Under the pieces are notes generated by a model, which was not told where the DNA came from, searched no databases, and saw only the letters and a program-made list of their open reading frames with translations. Of a stretch of 61,767 nucleotides of DNA, positions 2,165-57,200 are shown piece after piece; the stretch's first letter is position 1; each line of letters starts with the position of its first letter. Position numbers and translations under genes: made by a program. Source of the stretch: a virus; the IMG/VR virus record IMGVR_UViG_3300046524_000143, positions 1-61,767 of that record. One strand, written 5' to 3'.

Positions 2165-3262
2165 TTACGCGGCAATTACCTGCCAGTCGCCCCGTAGATC
2201 GTGATATTTGTCGGTCATTGCCGCCGTCTTGTGGCCGAGCATTGACTGAGCAAAGGCAGCGCCGAATTGCTCCCGGTACAGGCGTTCGGACAGACTGCGG
2301 ATCTCATGGAAGCTCGGTGGCGTCCTCCCCTCGGCGGCCTTGATGCCCGCAGCTTCACGGGCCTTTTGGAACGAGTTCGACAGGCCGTTGCTTGTCACTC
2401 GGTCACCGGGCTTGGCCGATCCTTGATGCTCCACGTGATGCACCAGATAGTGCGTCGTGATCAGGTCGCGGCAGGCTTGGACTGCCTCGCCAATCGAAAC
2501 ACCTACTTTTGCCAGTCGAATATCGCCGCTCAGCCGCAACTTGACGGTCCCGTTGCTCTTACCTTGGGTAACGTGCAAGTGCCCCTCGCGCCAGTCGGAG
2601 AACTTCAGGCCGGCGATGTCGTCGCGGCGCTGCGCCGTCGTCAGGGCGAGGTACATGGCCCGCTGCAGCCACCGCGGCGCCTTCGCATGGATTGCATGGA
2701 ACTGCTCGAGCGACAGGCGCTCACGCTTCACCTGGGGCCGTGGAGCGCGAGTAGCGGAGACCGGATTGCGGCCGACGTCGATCAAGCCCTGCGTTTCTGC
2801 CCATCGGAACACGTCGCTCATGCGCGCCCGTACGGCATTGGCCGTCGCTTCGCCACTTTCTTCCTCTACCTCTTCCAGAAACTTCGCCACATGTGCAGTG
2901 GCGATGTCCTTCAGCCGGCGCTTGCCGATATCCGCCTCGGTCATCTTCTTGATGTACATCGTGCAGGCGCGGATCGTGTTGTCGCGCGGCTTCTTCTTCT
3001 CCAGCCACAGTTCCTTGTAGACTGGCAGCCAGCCTTCAAGCGTGTACTCGGTCTTACCCATCACCCAATCGACCAGCGACGACGGCTCGCGGGCTGCCAA
3101 TGCCGCGTTGGCGGCACGCGCCTGCTGTACTGCGTGCGCCTTATCCCGCCCGAGCCCTTTTTGCGTCTTCTCGACCGGGTTGCGGTAATAGAAGTACCCA
3201 GCCGGGTTCTGGTACAGGTTCGGCGGCAGCGCGCGGTGCTTAGCAAGTCGTCTACGGCCCAT
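2165..3262 (-). CDS. int: tyrosine recombinase, phage integrase
   Basis: This is a 365-residue lambda-type integrase. The N-terminus (MGRRRLAKHRALPPNLYQ) resembles the short arm-binding domain of lambda-like integrases. It is followed by a core-binding helical domain at about residues 70-175 and a catalytic domain. The catalytic set is visible: Arg in TTAQRRDDIAGL, His-x-x-Arg in SFHEIRSLSERLY, His in MLGHKT and the nucleophile Tyr in TDKYHD. It mediates attP x attB recombination. The start lies directly behind the xis stop codon (TAA at 3266-3264), so the two are translated together. It is the last gene of the leftward operon. Confidence 0.95.
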   Translation of the reverse strand: MGRRRLAKHRALPPNLYQNPAGYFYYRNPVEKTQKGLGRDKAHAVQQARAANAALAAREPSSLVDWVMGKTEYTLEGWLPVYKELWLEKKKPRDNTIRACTMYIKKMTEADIGKRRLKDIATAHVAKFLEEVEEESGEATANAVRARMSDVFRWAETQGLIDVGRNPVSATRAPRPQVKRERLSLEQFHAIHAKAPRWLQRAMYLALTTAQRRDDIAGLKFSDWREGHLHVTQGKSNGTVKLRLSGDIRLAKVGVSIGEAVQACRDLITTHYLVHHVEHQGSAKPGDRVTSNGLSNSFQKAREAAGIKAAEGRTPPSFHEIRSLSERLYREQFGAAFAQSMLGHKTAAMTDKYHDLRGDWQVIAA

Positions 3263-24759: not shown

Positions 24760-25521
24760 ATGAATACGCGTGCATCCAAATTCGAGGACGTGTGTGATGC
24801 CTTAAGGATTGGCGATGGCACTCCGGCCCAGATTGCGCAGCGCTCAAAAGCCAGCCTATCTGCTACTAAAAGACACCTTAGTCAGCTACATAACGAGGGT
24901 CTGGCGCATGTGACTCGATGGGAGATTGGATCGTCGCCGGCGCGAGTATGGTCATTCGGGCCGGGTGAAGATGCGCCGAAGCCGATACCTACCGCAGAAG
25001 AAATTCAAACACGGCAGGCAAAGAGATCCGAATACCTTCGGCAATACGCACTCGAAAACAAGGATCGCTTTGCGAAGAATCTAGCCAAGTATCGAAATGC
25101 CAATCGTGAAAAAGTCAACGAAAGCAACCGGCGCTCAAGGGAGAGGCACCAGGAACGAGCTAGAGCAACATGGATCGCATATTACGAAGCGAATAAAGAA
25201 AAATGTAAAGCTGCAACTAAGAAGTGGCGGTTAGAAAACCGTGATGCGTATCGAGTAATGAGGCAGAACCGACGAGCTCGACAACGCGATGGGAAGCTAT
25301 CCAAAGATATCGTCGCTCGACTGTACAAGTTACAGCGTGGGAAGTGTGCCTGTTGCAGCCTGCGGCTAGGGAAGGACTTTCATATTGACCATATCAATCC
25401 ACTTGCGAAAGGTGGAAGGAACGCAGACGACAACGTCCAATTGCTTCGCCGACTTTGCAACCAGAAAAAGAACGCAAAGGACCCGATCGACTACATGCAA
25501 GAGAAGGGGTTCTTGCTGTGA
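24760..25521 (+). CDS. HNH endonuclease with N-terminal winged helix, 253 aa
   Basis: Residues 1-65 look like a winged HTH (GTPAQIAQRSKASLSATKRH). The middle is a highly charged, Asn-rich coiled region (REKVNESNRRSRERHQERAR). The C-terminal 70 residues are a complete HNH domain: CACCSLRLGKDFHIDHINPL, then NVQLLRRLCNQKK. The lower GC of the middle region compared with its neighbours suggests recent acquisition. It is probably a free-standing mobile nuclease. Confidence 0.85.
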   Translation: MNTRASKFEDVCDALRIGDGTPAQIAQRSKASLSATKRHLSQLHNEGLAHVTRWEIGSSPARVWSFGPGEDAPKPIPTAEEIQTRQAKRSEYLRQYALENKDRFAKNLAKYRNANREKVNESNRRSRERHQERARATWIAYYEANKEKCKAATKKWRLENRDAYRVMRQNRRARQRDGKLSKDIVARLYKLQRGKCACCSLRLGKDFHIDHINPLAKGGRNADDNVQLLRRLCNQKKNAKDPIDYMQEKGFLL

Positions 25522-25733
25522 ATTCAAAATATTCCTGCCACGGCAAGCCTCGTCCTGCCACGCACAGCACCTACAAGGCCCAAGCCGGCTGGAAGCTCTG
25601 GCAGAACACTCGCAAGCCGTTCTACGTCGATATCAAGTCTGCTTTCGGCACGACGGAGTGCCAGTACACAAAGGACCATGCAGGCGATCCGCAGTGCTCG
25701 GGGTGCGTGCATCAATTCAAGGAGGAGGCGTGA
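25518..25733 (+). CDS. hypothetical cysteine-containing protein, 71 aa
   Basis: The start is GTG 25518, overlapping the HNH stop. The product (MNSKYSCHGKPRPATHSTYK) ends with CQYTKDHAGDPQCSGCVHQF, three cysteines that could bind zinc. AGGAGGAGGC at its end serves as the ribosome site for the overlapping methyltransferase-locus genes. Confidence 0.62.
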   Translation: MNSKYSCHGKPRPATHSTYKAQAGWKLWQNTRKPFYVDIKSAFGTTECQYTKDHAGDPQCSGCVHQFKEEA

Positions 25734-26503
25734 ATGAGTTGGCACTTTTCGCAGGCGCTGGTGGAGGCATTCTCGGAGGCCACCTGCTCGGGTGGAGAAC
25801 AGTCTGCGCAGTCGAGTACAACGCCTACGCCCGCAGCGTACTACTGGCCCGACAAAACGACGGAACACTCCCGCCTTTCCCGATTTGGGATGACGTCCGA
25901 ACCTTTGACGGAAAGCCTTGGCGAGGCGTTGTTGACGTGGTTTCGGGCGGCTTCCCGTGCCAGGACATCAGCGTTTCCGGCAAGGGAGACGGCCTCGACG
26001 GCGAGCGGAGCGGACTATGGAGTGAAATGGCCCGGATCATTCGCGAGGTTCAGCCCCGATTCGTGTTCGTGGAAAACTCCCCAGCTCTCACTTGCCGGGG
26101 ACTTGGACGAGTTCTCGGAGACTTGGCCTGCATGGGGTTTGATGCGAAATGGGGCGTGCTGGGAGCTCACAACGCCGGAGCTCCCCACTTGCGCGACCGA
26201 ATTTGGATTGTGGCCAACGCCGTGCGCGTCGGATTCGAGTCACAGGAAGGCGTCGCCCAATCCGCATCTGACCAAGAACGGCACGCTCAAGCACATCGGA
26301 AAATCTGGGGTGTTGAGTCAGATTCGCCTCAGCCAGGCGGTAAAGCACTTCGCCAAGCCTGGCGATACGGATGGCCCACTGAACCCGGAGTGGACCGAAT
26401 GGCTGATGGGATGGCCGATCGGGCAGACCGCATTAAAGCCCTTGGCAACGGACAAGTTCCGCGAGTGGCAGCAGCAGCATGGAGGATCTTAAGTCATGAA
26501 TGA
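25730..26503 (+). CDS. C5-cytosine DNA methyltransferase, 257 aa
   Basis: The start is GTG 25730, only about 4 nt behind AGGAGG. Motif I is LFAGAGGGILGG, motif IV GGFPCQDIS with the catalytic Cys, motif VI FVFVENSPAL, motif VIII HLRDRIWIVA and motif X IKALGNGQVPRVAAAAW. The target-recognition region between VIII and X is short (about 70 residues). It methylates cytosine at C5, presumably to protect phage DNA from host restriction. Almost its whole length is overprinted by a second open frame on the same strand (25734-26492). Confidence 0.92.
   Translation: MNELALFAGAGGGILGGHLLGWRTVCAVEYNAYARSVLLARQNDGTLPPFPIWDDVRTFDGKPWRGVVDVVSGGFPCQDISVSGKGDGLDGERSGLWSEMARIIREVQPRFVFVENSPALTCRGLGRVLGDLACMGFDAKWGVLGAHNAGAPHLRDRIWIVANAVRVGFESQEGVAQSASDQERHAQAHRKIWGVESDSPQPGGKALRQAWRYGWPTEPGVDRMADGMADRADRIKALGNGQVPRVAAAAWRILSHE
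25734..26492 (+). CDS. overprinted Trp-rich protein of unknown function in an alternative frame, 252 aa
   Basis: This frame, +1 relative to the methyltransferase, starts at ATG 25734, about 8 nt behind AGGAGG. That is better spaced than the methyltransferase GTG. It stays open for 252 codons. It contains SSTTPTPAAYYWPDKTTEHS, SCSWKTPQLSLAGDLDEFSE, TWPAWGLMRNGACWELTTPE, GLWPTPCASDS and LNPEWTEWLMGWPIG. From memory, this Trp/Pro-rich pattern recurs in phage proteins annotated beside or over C5 methyltransferases; I cannot verify that here. The function is unknown. Confidence 0.6.
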   Translation: MSWHFSQALVEAFSEATCSGGEQSAQSSTTPTPAAYYWPDKTTEHSRLSRFGMTSEPLTESLGEALLTWFRAASRARTSAFPARETASTASGADYGVKWPGSFARFSPDSCSWKTPQLSLAGDLDEFSETWPAWGLMRNGACWELTTPELPTCATEFGLWPTPCASDSSHRKASPNPHLTKNGTLKHIGKSGVLSQIRLSQAVKHFAKPGDTDGPLNPEWTEWLMGWPIGQTALKPLATDKFREWQQQHGGS

Positions 26504-26636: not shown

Positions 26637-26878
26637 TGCGCGCCCCAAGCCCCGACCAAATCTGCGGCATGTGCGTCGACTTCACCAGGAAGAACGCCGA
26701 GCCTCAGTACGTCGCCCTCGGCATGGGCCGGTGTCACGGCTACGACCAGGATGCCACGTCACCAGTGCGCTACGTCGCCTGGAGCGAGACCTGCGTCCTG
26801 TTCGACAAGGACAAGGCGAACGCTCATGCACGCCGCCGGTTCGTCGAGAAGTGCCAACTTGAGCGGGAGGGCGAATGA
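26636..26878 (+). CDS. small zinc-binding protein, 80 aa
   Basis: The start is ATG 26636, in TAATG overlap. Cysteines in QICGMCVDF, GRCHGY, SETCVLF and EKCQL could bind one zinc. The family occurs in phage replication regions with no known role. It overlaps the RuvC-like gene by 4 bp. Confidence 0.65.
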   Translation: MRAPSPDQICGMCVDFTRKNAEPQYVALGMGRCHGYDQDATSPVRYVAWSETCVLFDKDKANAHARRRFVEKCQLEREGE

Positions 26879-27354
26879 TCCTAGCCATCGACCCCGGTAC
26901 AACCGAGAGCGGGTGGTGCCTATACGACGGCACGAGTGTCCATAACTCGGGCGTGCTGGCTAACCACGAAATGCTGGCGGTTCTCCAACTCGTGACCGCC
27001 GACCAGCTAGCTATCGAGCGCGTGGCGTCATACGGCATGGCAGTGGGCCGCGAAGTGTTCGAAACGTGCGAATGGGTCGGGGAATACCGGAACGAGTGGC
27101 GACGGCGCGGCAAGGGGGAGGCGATCCTCGTCTACCGCAAGGACGTGAAGATGCACCTGTGCGGCACCACGAAGGCGGCAGACCCGAACGTGCGCCGGGC
27201 CTTGATCGATAAATTCCCGCGCACAGGCGGGGGAGCAACACCACAGATCGGCATTAAATCCAAACCCGGGCCGCTTTACGGGGTATCTAGCCACGCATGG
27301 GCGGCGCTTGCGGTGGCGGTGACGGCAGTAGAACAACACAGGGGGAGATCATGA
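26875..27354 (+). CDS. RuvC-like Holliday-junction resolvase, 159 aa
   Basis: The ribonuclease-H-like fold is marked by ILAIDPGTTESGWCLYDG with the first catalytic Asp, LAIERVASYG with the catalytic Glu, and a C-terminal SSHAWAALAVAV with His and Ala-rich helix. The length suits phage RuvC-type resolvases. It resolves branched DNA before packaging. It starts at ATG 26875, overlapping the upstream stop. Confidence 0.87.
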   Translation: MILAIDPGTTESGWCLYDGTSVHNSGVLANHEMLAVLQLVTADQLAIERVASYGMAVGREVFETCEWVGEYRNEWRRRGKGEAILVYRKDVKMHLCGTTKAADPNVRRALIDKFPRTGGGATPQIGIKSKPGPLYGVSSHAWAALAVAVTAVEQHRGRS

Positions 27355-55971: not shown

Positions 55972-57006
55972 TTAAGCTTGTTTGGCTAATTTCCGATTCA
56001 CGAGGTCATCTCTAAGCGCCCGAGTTAGCGGGACCTCGATGTATCTGTTGGCTAAACCCGCCAGCACGGTTGCGATCAAAAACAGGTAGATCCACGCGAG
56101 CCACCATACCGGCACTTGGGCGATCCGCATGGCGACGATGGCGAAGGGCTGAGTCAGATAGAAGCTGTACGAGATATCACCCATCCATACCAAGGAGGCT
56201 GGCCAGCGTACCTTCGCCGTGAGGTCAAGACCAACGCAGCCTGCCACCACCATGAAAGACGAAAGACCCCATGTCGCCACTCGCAGCATTGCGAGCTTGC
56301 TCGACGTAAGAGAGGTTTCGTGGATCGAAAGCCATGGCCTTGCCGAGCCAGCTTCCCACATGAGCCACAGCCCTCCGAGCAGCAAACATAGGGAGACTCG
56401 AAAGCTCAGCTTATGCCGGAATCGATACAGCAACAGGCCGAGCACAAATTCTAGTGCAAGGGGACTTCCGAGGAAGTGAGGCGCAAACCAGTTGCCGTTA
56501 TAGAAGAACGTCAGGATTACGGCTGACACAATAAAGAGGATAAATGCCTTGCCAGCCCTTTGCTTGGCATACGACAGTGCCACAGCAAAGATTAGGTAAA
56601 ACCACATCTCCAACGCCACTGACCAGCCGAACCAATGAGCAGGGTTGGTGTAGGTATTCCCATAGTCGAATATCGGAATGAAACACAAGGTATTCCAGAT
56701 CTTCGACATCGACGCGTCGTCCATGGCGAGGAAAAGCAGCGCCGTGATCAAGTACATCGGCAGGATGCGCGTGAGGCGATTGCGAATAAAATCCGCAGGC
56801 CCGCCACGAGAACGCTCCGTCACCATGGCGATCACGAAGCCTGAAATGATGAAGAAGACGTCGACGCCCATAGCGCCGATTCTCCAAGGGAAGTCGGCGA
56901 ATGGACCAGCAGGTGGCTTGGTCGCCATAGGTGCATGCGCCAACAGGACCATCATGGCAGCGATCCCGCGAAGCACCTGAATGCTGTTTAGTTTCTGCTT
57001 TTCCAT
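55972..57006 (-). CDS. acyltransferase-3 family membrane protein, internal complete copy, 344 aa
   Basis: The start is ATG 57006 (MEKQKLNSIQVLRGIAAMMV). The product has about ten hydrophobic helices and the family Arg/His motif in RGIAAMMVLLAHA. It is predicted to acylate surface polysaccharide and may change the host receptor (seroconversion). Bases 56376-56958 are identical to 1-583. The C-terminal part differs from the junction copy at about nine residues, and the junction copy has a 10-residue longer tail. Confidence 0.9.
   Translation of the reverse strand: MEKQKLNSIQVLRGIAAMMVLLAHAPMATKPPAGPFADFPWRIGAMGVDVFFIISGFVIAMVTERSRGGPADFIRNRLTRILPMYLITALLFLAMDDASMSKIWNTLCFIPIFDYGNTYTNPAHWFGWSVALEMWFYLIFAVALSYAKQRAGKAFILFIVSAVILTFFYNGNWFAPHFLGSPLALEFVLGLLLYRFRHKLSFRVSLCLLLGGLWLMWEAGSARPWLSIHETSLTSSKLAMLRVATWGLSSFMVVAGCVGLDLTAKVRWPASLVWMGDISYSFYLTQPFAIVAMRIAQVPVWWLAWIYLFLIATVLAGLANRYIEVPLTRALRDDLVNRKLAKQA
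56376..56958. repeat. 583-bp identical segment shared with positions 1-583
   Basis: The segment lies within the two acyltransferase genes. The copies diverge at 584/56959 (c versus a) and before 56376 (c versus a at 61640). Direct orientation means recombination between them would remove the 5.26-kb lysis region. Confidence 0.9.
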
Positions 57007-57200
57007 TGGAGAACCTATATCAGGCATTTCGTAAGAGTGCGGAACGGTTCGCACTGATGCTGATCTATCTCAACCAAAGCAAGAAAGACAGAAGATAGAC
57101 CTGTTTCAAACGCACCGCAATGCGATTCGACTGCGCGTTGTAACTATCCATCACCCGCCGCGAGCGGGCGCTGTAGAGGCATCTATATCCACCACCTGCG

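Follow-up and report, generated by a model that had tools for sequence, protein, structure and literature searches.

Two overprinted genes at a phage methyltransferase locus are very likely subunits of one C5-cytosine methyltransferase

RESULTS

Two long reading frames overlap at the methyltransferase locus

The DNA analyzed here (the window) is the whole 61,767 nucleotides of the viral record IMGVR_UViG_3300046524_000143 in IMG/VR. At its methyltransferase locus, two long open reading frames lie on the same strand (Table 1). One of them, alpha, begins with GTG and specifies a 257-amino-acid protein with the hallmarks of the catalytic part of a C5-cytosine methyltransferase. The other, beta, begins with ATG, would specify 252 amino acids, and is in phase +1 relative to alpha. 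The Shine-Dalgarno stretch ahead of both starts contains AGGAGG twice (25720-25725 and 25723-25728), lying 8 and 5 nt before the beta ATG and 4 and 1 nt before the alpha GTG. A preliminary description made from the sequence alone had reported the two overprinted frames with these coordinates, start codons, and lengths, all of which held; its judgment that the beta ATG is better spaced from AGGAGG than the GTG corresponds to these distances. The dual start, xTGAATG, is kept in most relatives, including nearly all of the 80 loci found by searching with beta (see below). The stop codon of an upstream ORF falls between the two starts, and we infer that its translation may be coupled to that of alpha and beta.

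Table 1. Features of the alpha/beta locus, in window coordinates
Feature	Position	Strand	Basis
Upstream ORF, with its TGA stop (25731-25733) between the alpha and beta starts	25455..25733	+	
Shine-Dalgarno stretch AGGAGGAGG, common to GTG 25730 (alpha) and ATG 25734 (beta), 4 nt apart	25720..25728	+	
Alpha, C5-cytosine methyltransferase catalytic subunit (motifs I-VIII and X)	25730..26503	+	PF00145, phrog_363, AlphaFold/Foldseek
Beta, overprinted +1-frame gene, proposed target-recognition/motif IX subunit	25734..26492	+	Conserved open frame, phrog_1008, constraint
Alpha motif I, FAGAGG, AdoMet binding	25748..25765	+	
Alpha motif IV, GFPCQ, catalytic Cys	25949..25963	+	Aligned to M.HhaI
Alpha motif VI, ENS	26072..26080	+	Aligned to M.HhaI
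Alpha motif VIII, RDRIWIV	26192..26212	+	Aligned to M.HhaI
Beta WPTP, start of target-recognition-like segment (WPTPxxSD)	26211..26222	+	
Stretch with beta as the selected frame (alpha residues 166-240)	26225..26449	+	Codon-position rates; alpha pLDDT about 37-50
Beta motif IX-like stretch, LNPEWTEWLMGWPIG	26379..26423	+	hhalign chain; fixed synonymous alpha sites
Alpha motif X, ALGNGQVP, alpha again the selected frame	26438..26461	+	

Judged by eye, the locus is flanked by genes for an HNH-endonuclease-like protein (24760-25521) and a RuvC-like resolvase (26875-27354). Also by eye, an ORF at 1216-1959 resembles ImuA of bacteria, and after it comes a minus-strand, integrase-like ORF (2165-3262); on the strength of this adjoining pair, the window is apparently a prophage that includes host DNA on the left. 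Near the right end, an ORF for an acyltransferase-3-like membrane protein (55972-57054, minus strand, by eye) could possibly serve to modify host surface sugars.

The second frame is kept open in relatives but not in complete enzymes

Synonymous shuffling of the window alone gave P = 0.014 for the open run of beta, which is moderately unusual for GC-rich DNA. The window by itself is therefore no proof of a gene, and the relatives decide the matter. A scan of IMG/VR with beta found 168 relatives, 80 of which were kept, and both frames were present in all 80. Since this sample had been picked by beta, we drew a second one that was picked by alpha alone. There, beta was open to its natural end in 76 of 77 distinct loci, for each of which synonymous shuffling gave a probability of 0.003 of an open frame, with 4.9 stops expected in the beta frame; the third frame of the same loci had 15.8 stops on average. 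The sole exception, L088, carries one stop in the motif IX-like stretch.

The layout was mostly likewise in 80 loci from bacterial genomes, a few of which had a single stop in one or the other frame. Single stops break alpha or beta in L088, L168, L194, L195, L229, L233, and L240, with both frames affected across the set, and such relatives might be decaying copies or reflect sequencing errors.

Distant relatives, mostly 33 to 60% identical to the queries, comprised 27 Bacteroides-type and 19 actinophage-type loci, together with one on a plasmid of the archaeon Methanomethylovorans. The long +1 frame was kept in almost all of them, most ending LPTPxxSD...LMGFPxGWT; in a few that were GC-rich or truncated, the +1 frame was individually nonsignificant. 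Complete C5 methyltransferases (nine canonical enzymes and four 400-amino-acid relatives) lack a beta frame, with P values from 0.11 to 0.96. Hundreds of loci have the alpha/beta arrangement; they lie in phages, prophages, and plasmids from many bacterial phyla and on a single plasmid from an archaeon.

In every deep-overlap record that we inspected, one of the two frames was annotated and never both. Beta is annotated as a "hypothetical protein" CDS in Pseudomonas phage phPA-G and Vibrio phage 1.236.O, and alpha is annotated in Acinetobacter phage ABMM1, E. coli PT62, Microcystis phage Mel-JY01, Manatee Spring phage, and Salmonella phage S9-5. The arrangement has been missed because annotation records one of the two genes. 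In Mycobacterium phage Jinglebell (L253, 953-1658), annotated minus-strand hypothetical genes cover an alpha/beta locus on the plus strand whose alpha frame is interrupted; we regard this minus-strand annotation as a likely misannotation.

The selected frame alternates along the locus

We measured divergence by codon position in 61 independent pairs and counted the informative ones. Over alpha residues 1 to 165, third positions changed more than first positions in 60 of 60 pairs, marking alpha as the conserved frame. Over residues 166 to 240, the order was reversed, and alpha first positions, which are the third positions of beta, changed more than alpha third positions in 56 of 59 pairs, so that beta is the conserved frame there. 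Over residues 241 to 257, which contain motif X, third positions again changed more than first positions (48 of 53 pairs), and alpha is once more conserved. It follows from these switches that alpha controls the DNA at motifs I to VIII, beta controls it at the target-recognition stretch and motif IX, and alpha does so again at motif X.

Excess synonymous constraint over the whole alpha gene was not found. The ratio of third- to first-position change over residues 1 to 165 was 2.2, compared with 2.4 in neighboring single genes, and constraint was confined to particular sites. Because the rates over residues 1 to 165 resemble those of neighboring single genes, we consider the N-terminal half of beta (about 160 residues) to be only lightly constrained; this region has no counterpart in canonical C5 small domains.

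The constrained sites were resolved by an analysis of fourfold-degenerate alpha sites in 135 loci of at most 82% identity. Such sites were fixed where they overlie beta residues L67 (97%), P132 (100%), and G135 (99%), and likewise at P218, W223, G226, P228, and P236 (97 to 100%), while the remaining fourfold sites were near background, at about 36%. A fixed synonymous alpha site was also found at beta L9, and synonymous alpha sites were 99 to 100% fixed over the motif IX-like stretch of beta. Dual coding, in the sense that selection acts on both frames of one stretch of DNA, is thus shown; that beta is translated remains an inference.

Alpha is a catalytic domain without a small domain

Alpha matched PF00145 with an E value of 3e-30, the match ending at profile position 196 of 324, and matched phrog_363 with an E value of 2e-64. 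Alpha-type genes from ten bacterial genomes likewise end at about PF00145 position 160 to 180, whereas complete enzymes from the same genomes reach position 320. In an AlphaFold model of alpha, pLDDT was mostly 85 to 95 at residues 1 to 165 and at residues 241 to 257, which form the motif X helix, but only 37 to 50 at residues 168 to 240. The Foldseek matches of alpha to M.HaeIII and M.HhaI, about 167 residues long, were confined to the large domain of those enzymes. Neither a target-recognition domain (TRD), a small domain, nor motif IX was recognizable in alpha with the Pfam profile, AlphaFold, or Foldseek. Alpha therefore meets the criteria for the catalytic part of a C5-cytosine methyltransferase, having motifs I, IV (PCQ), VI (ENV/ENS), VIII, and X and a Rossmann-like large domain, and it fails those for a complete single-chain enzyme, since its chain holds no TRD or motif IX.

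The C-terminal part of beta resembles a target-recognition segment and motif IX

Beta has the signature WPTPxxSD...LNPxWxEWLMGWPxGWT and matched phrog_1008 (E = 5e-20); no family matching it was found in Pfam, NCBIfam, or PADLOC. An AlphaFold model of beta alone was of low confidence (pLDDT 62), and Foldseek found no match with that poor model. Direct comparison of beta with a canonical C5 profile by hhalign was nonsignificant (E = 0.31), although the register was correct, and we therefore drew the link to canonical enzymes through actinophage intermediates. The WPTP/TRD stretch of beta aligned with the C termini of actinophage split and single-chain enzymes at 97.7% (E = 2e-12). The motif IX stretch, LNPxWxEWLMG, was aligned to a single sequence only (probability 51%, E = 1.6e-4). 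The split/single-chain group, with RLxPxFxEWMMGxPxGW followed by motif X, in turn aligned with the canonical RLTPRECARLMGFPD...GNSV at 91.6% (E = 8e-7).

Tandem W/LPTPxxxD segments are common in the target-recognition stretch (for example, in L248, L251, L335, and L301), and specificity may possibly have grown through duplication of this repeat.

Actinophages carry the same pieces as separate genes or as one chain

The alpha and beta pieces occur as separate adjacent genes in the actinophages NiebruSaylor (gp6/gp5), Alma (gp83/gp82), Lilbooboo (gp32/gp33), and PrincessTrina (gp81/gp82). The match of NiebruSaylor gp5 to PHROG 1008 includes a C-terminal motif X. The same protein also matches the motif IX/X end of the single-chain enzyme PHROG 116, and NiebruSaylor gp6 matches the N-terminal part of that enzyme. 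Deb65 gp64 combines repeated LPTP segments, AAFPEWMMGWPAGW, and motif X in one chain. In these pairs, in Deb65 gp64, and in PHROGs 363, 1008, and 116, the alpha and beta pieces are homologous to those of the window. The actinophage pairs differ from the window type in that they overlap by merely 32 to 209 nt and carry motif X in the beta gene rather than in alpha. Beta was in +1 phase in all split pairs examined, with overlaps ranging from 32 to 897 nt, which suggests, as an inference, one ancestral split after which the overlap grew or shrank.

DISCUSSION

Two real and selected frames, an alternation of the selected frame, an alpha without a small domain, and a beta with related sequence are all shown by our data. 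The best explanation, to which we assign a probability of about 0.84, is that alpha and beta are mutually overprinted subunits of a single heterodimeric C5-cytosine methyltransferase. In this view, alpha (frame 0) would supply the catalytic domain with the AdoMet site, the catalytic Cys, and motif X, and beta (frame +1), whose start lies 4 nt further on and shares the ribosome-binding site of alpha, would supply the target-recognition segment and motif IX in its C-terminal part. The two would assemble into one active enzyme, which would probably methylate the DNA of the phage; escape from host restriction is the most plausible purpose. Translation of beta, assembly, activity, the need for both chains, and the biological role are all inferred: there are no expression, binding, or activity data, and the placement of the TRD in M.EcoHK31I counts against the heterodimer reading.

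Biochemically, the closest precedents are M.EcoHK31I and M.AquI, both established two-polypeptide C5 methyltransferases (PMC3404938). In M.EcoHK31I (YGGCCR), the large subunit has motifs I to VIII and X and the TRD, and motif IX lies in the small polypeptide (PMC3404938). The beta polypeptide of that enzyme is encoded within its alpha gene, in a different frame. The window type shares the alpha motif set (I to VIII and X) and the location of motif IX in a second polypeptide, a likeness of motif layout for which no sequences were compared. It differs in that the TRD stretch is selected in the beta frame instead of belonging to the large subunit, and in that beta spans nearly the whole alpha gene. 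The M.EcoHK31I type of layout, with motif IX only in beta, is therefore met, with the reservation that the motif IX link runs through intermediates and that the need for both polypeptides is inferred. M.AquI (CYCGRG) is split between motifs VIII and IX into two polypeptides (PMC3404938) and resembles the actinophage gene pairs; its alpha and beta genes overlap only briefly. Its motif X is in beta, whereas the motif X of the window is part of alpha, whose frame is the one selected there, so the window does not fit a split of the M.AquI type. M.HhaI and M.HaeIII share the large catalytic domain of alpha but are single-chain enzymes that also contain the TRD and motif IX; in complete C5 enzymes of this kind, the second frame is not open. 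The methylase locus of phage ShiLan harbors an out-of-frame HNH endonuclease (PMC11855218), another hidden alternate-frame gene at a phage methylase locus, but that endonuclease is a homing insertion and not an enzyme subunit. We found no description of the overprinted phage arrangement in the literature searched, although it may have been described elsewhere or in REBASE.

Could the second frame be a nonfunctional shadow, left open by codon bias and methyltransferase conservation? The P value of 0.014 for the window alone and the gene-like evolution of residues 1 to 165 would fit such a reading. It is all but excluded by the beta frame being open in 76 of 77 loci picked by alpha, the reversal of codon-position rates over residues 166 to 240, the fixed synonymous sites, and the absence of the frame from canonical C5 enzymes, and we rejected the shadow-ORF artifact on these grounds. 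A +1 ribosomal frameshift near motif VIII, yielding one chain of alpha residues 1 to 160 fused to the TRD and motif IX of beta and making the beta start incidental, is more tenable than a shadow and not excluded, but still very improbable. In its favor, the frame relation is +1 everywhere, and a translated fusion of alpha (1 to 160) and beta (161 to 252) has a sensible C5 domain order. Against it, the beta frame is kept open over some 160 codons before the junction and has a conserved start, and synonymous sites are fixed at beta L9, L67, P132, and G135, none of which a shift at motif VIII would need. Furthermore, actinophage betas have their own starts, and alpha's own motif X is under selection.

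The most serious rival holds that beta is a separate protein, such as an anti-host factor or one that regulates the methyltransferase or serves as its adaptor, and not the missing domain of the enzyme. Beta does have its own start and an N-terminal region of about 160 residues that is foreign to canonical C5 small domains, and alone it matches no PDB fold. However, its C-terminal half aligns with the TRD and motif IX of C5 enzymes of the split and single-chain forms, this is the very part missing from alpha, and complete C5 enzymes lack beta. We therefore consider a separate protein unlikely and prefer the heterodimer reading.

Several expectations of the preliminary description can be judged by these results. 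Its claim that the methyltransferase frame carries all expected motifs failed, as motifs I to VIII and X are present with no recognizable motif IX or TRD. It was right that the target-recognition stretch is where beta most resembles a protein, beta being the selected frame there, and its proposals of conserved dual coding and of comparable proteins next to the C5 methyltransferases of other phages were supported. So was a partner role for beta; a regulator outside the enzyme is less likely but not excluded. Beta had been considered of unknown function, which we correct, since it looks like the missing target-recognition/motif IX subunit. Of the two outcomes named as refuting, a beta broken in relatives with an intact methyltransferase is not general, L088 being the one exception, and synonymous constraint in the methyltransferase frame is present exactly at conserved beta residues.

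In prokaryotes, long genes that overlap on one strand are rare and disputed, and gene callers exclude them. The alpha/beta overlap, at about 750 nt and at hundreds of loci, can be tested on both frames; its two products seem to belong to a single enzyme instead of being unrelated, and the frame under selection changes within one locus. Because annotation captures a single frame, cloning such a phage C5 methyltransferase from its annotation would normally overlook a subunit, and a recoded clone could give a false "inactive" result. The natural overlaps, graded from 32 to 897 nt, are a ready-made series in which the growth of overlapping genes can be studied. A bolder reading, which we think likely, is that these loci represent an old and widespread class of C5 methyltransferases whose subunits are almost fully overprinted, the selected frame alternating from alpha to beta to alpha. 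If so, swapping one DNA segment could change the specificity of the enzyme while leaving both subunits matched.
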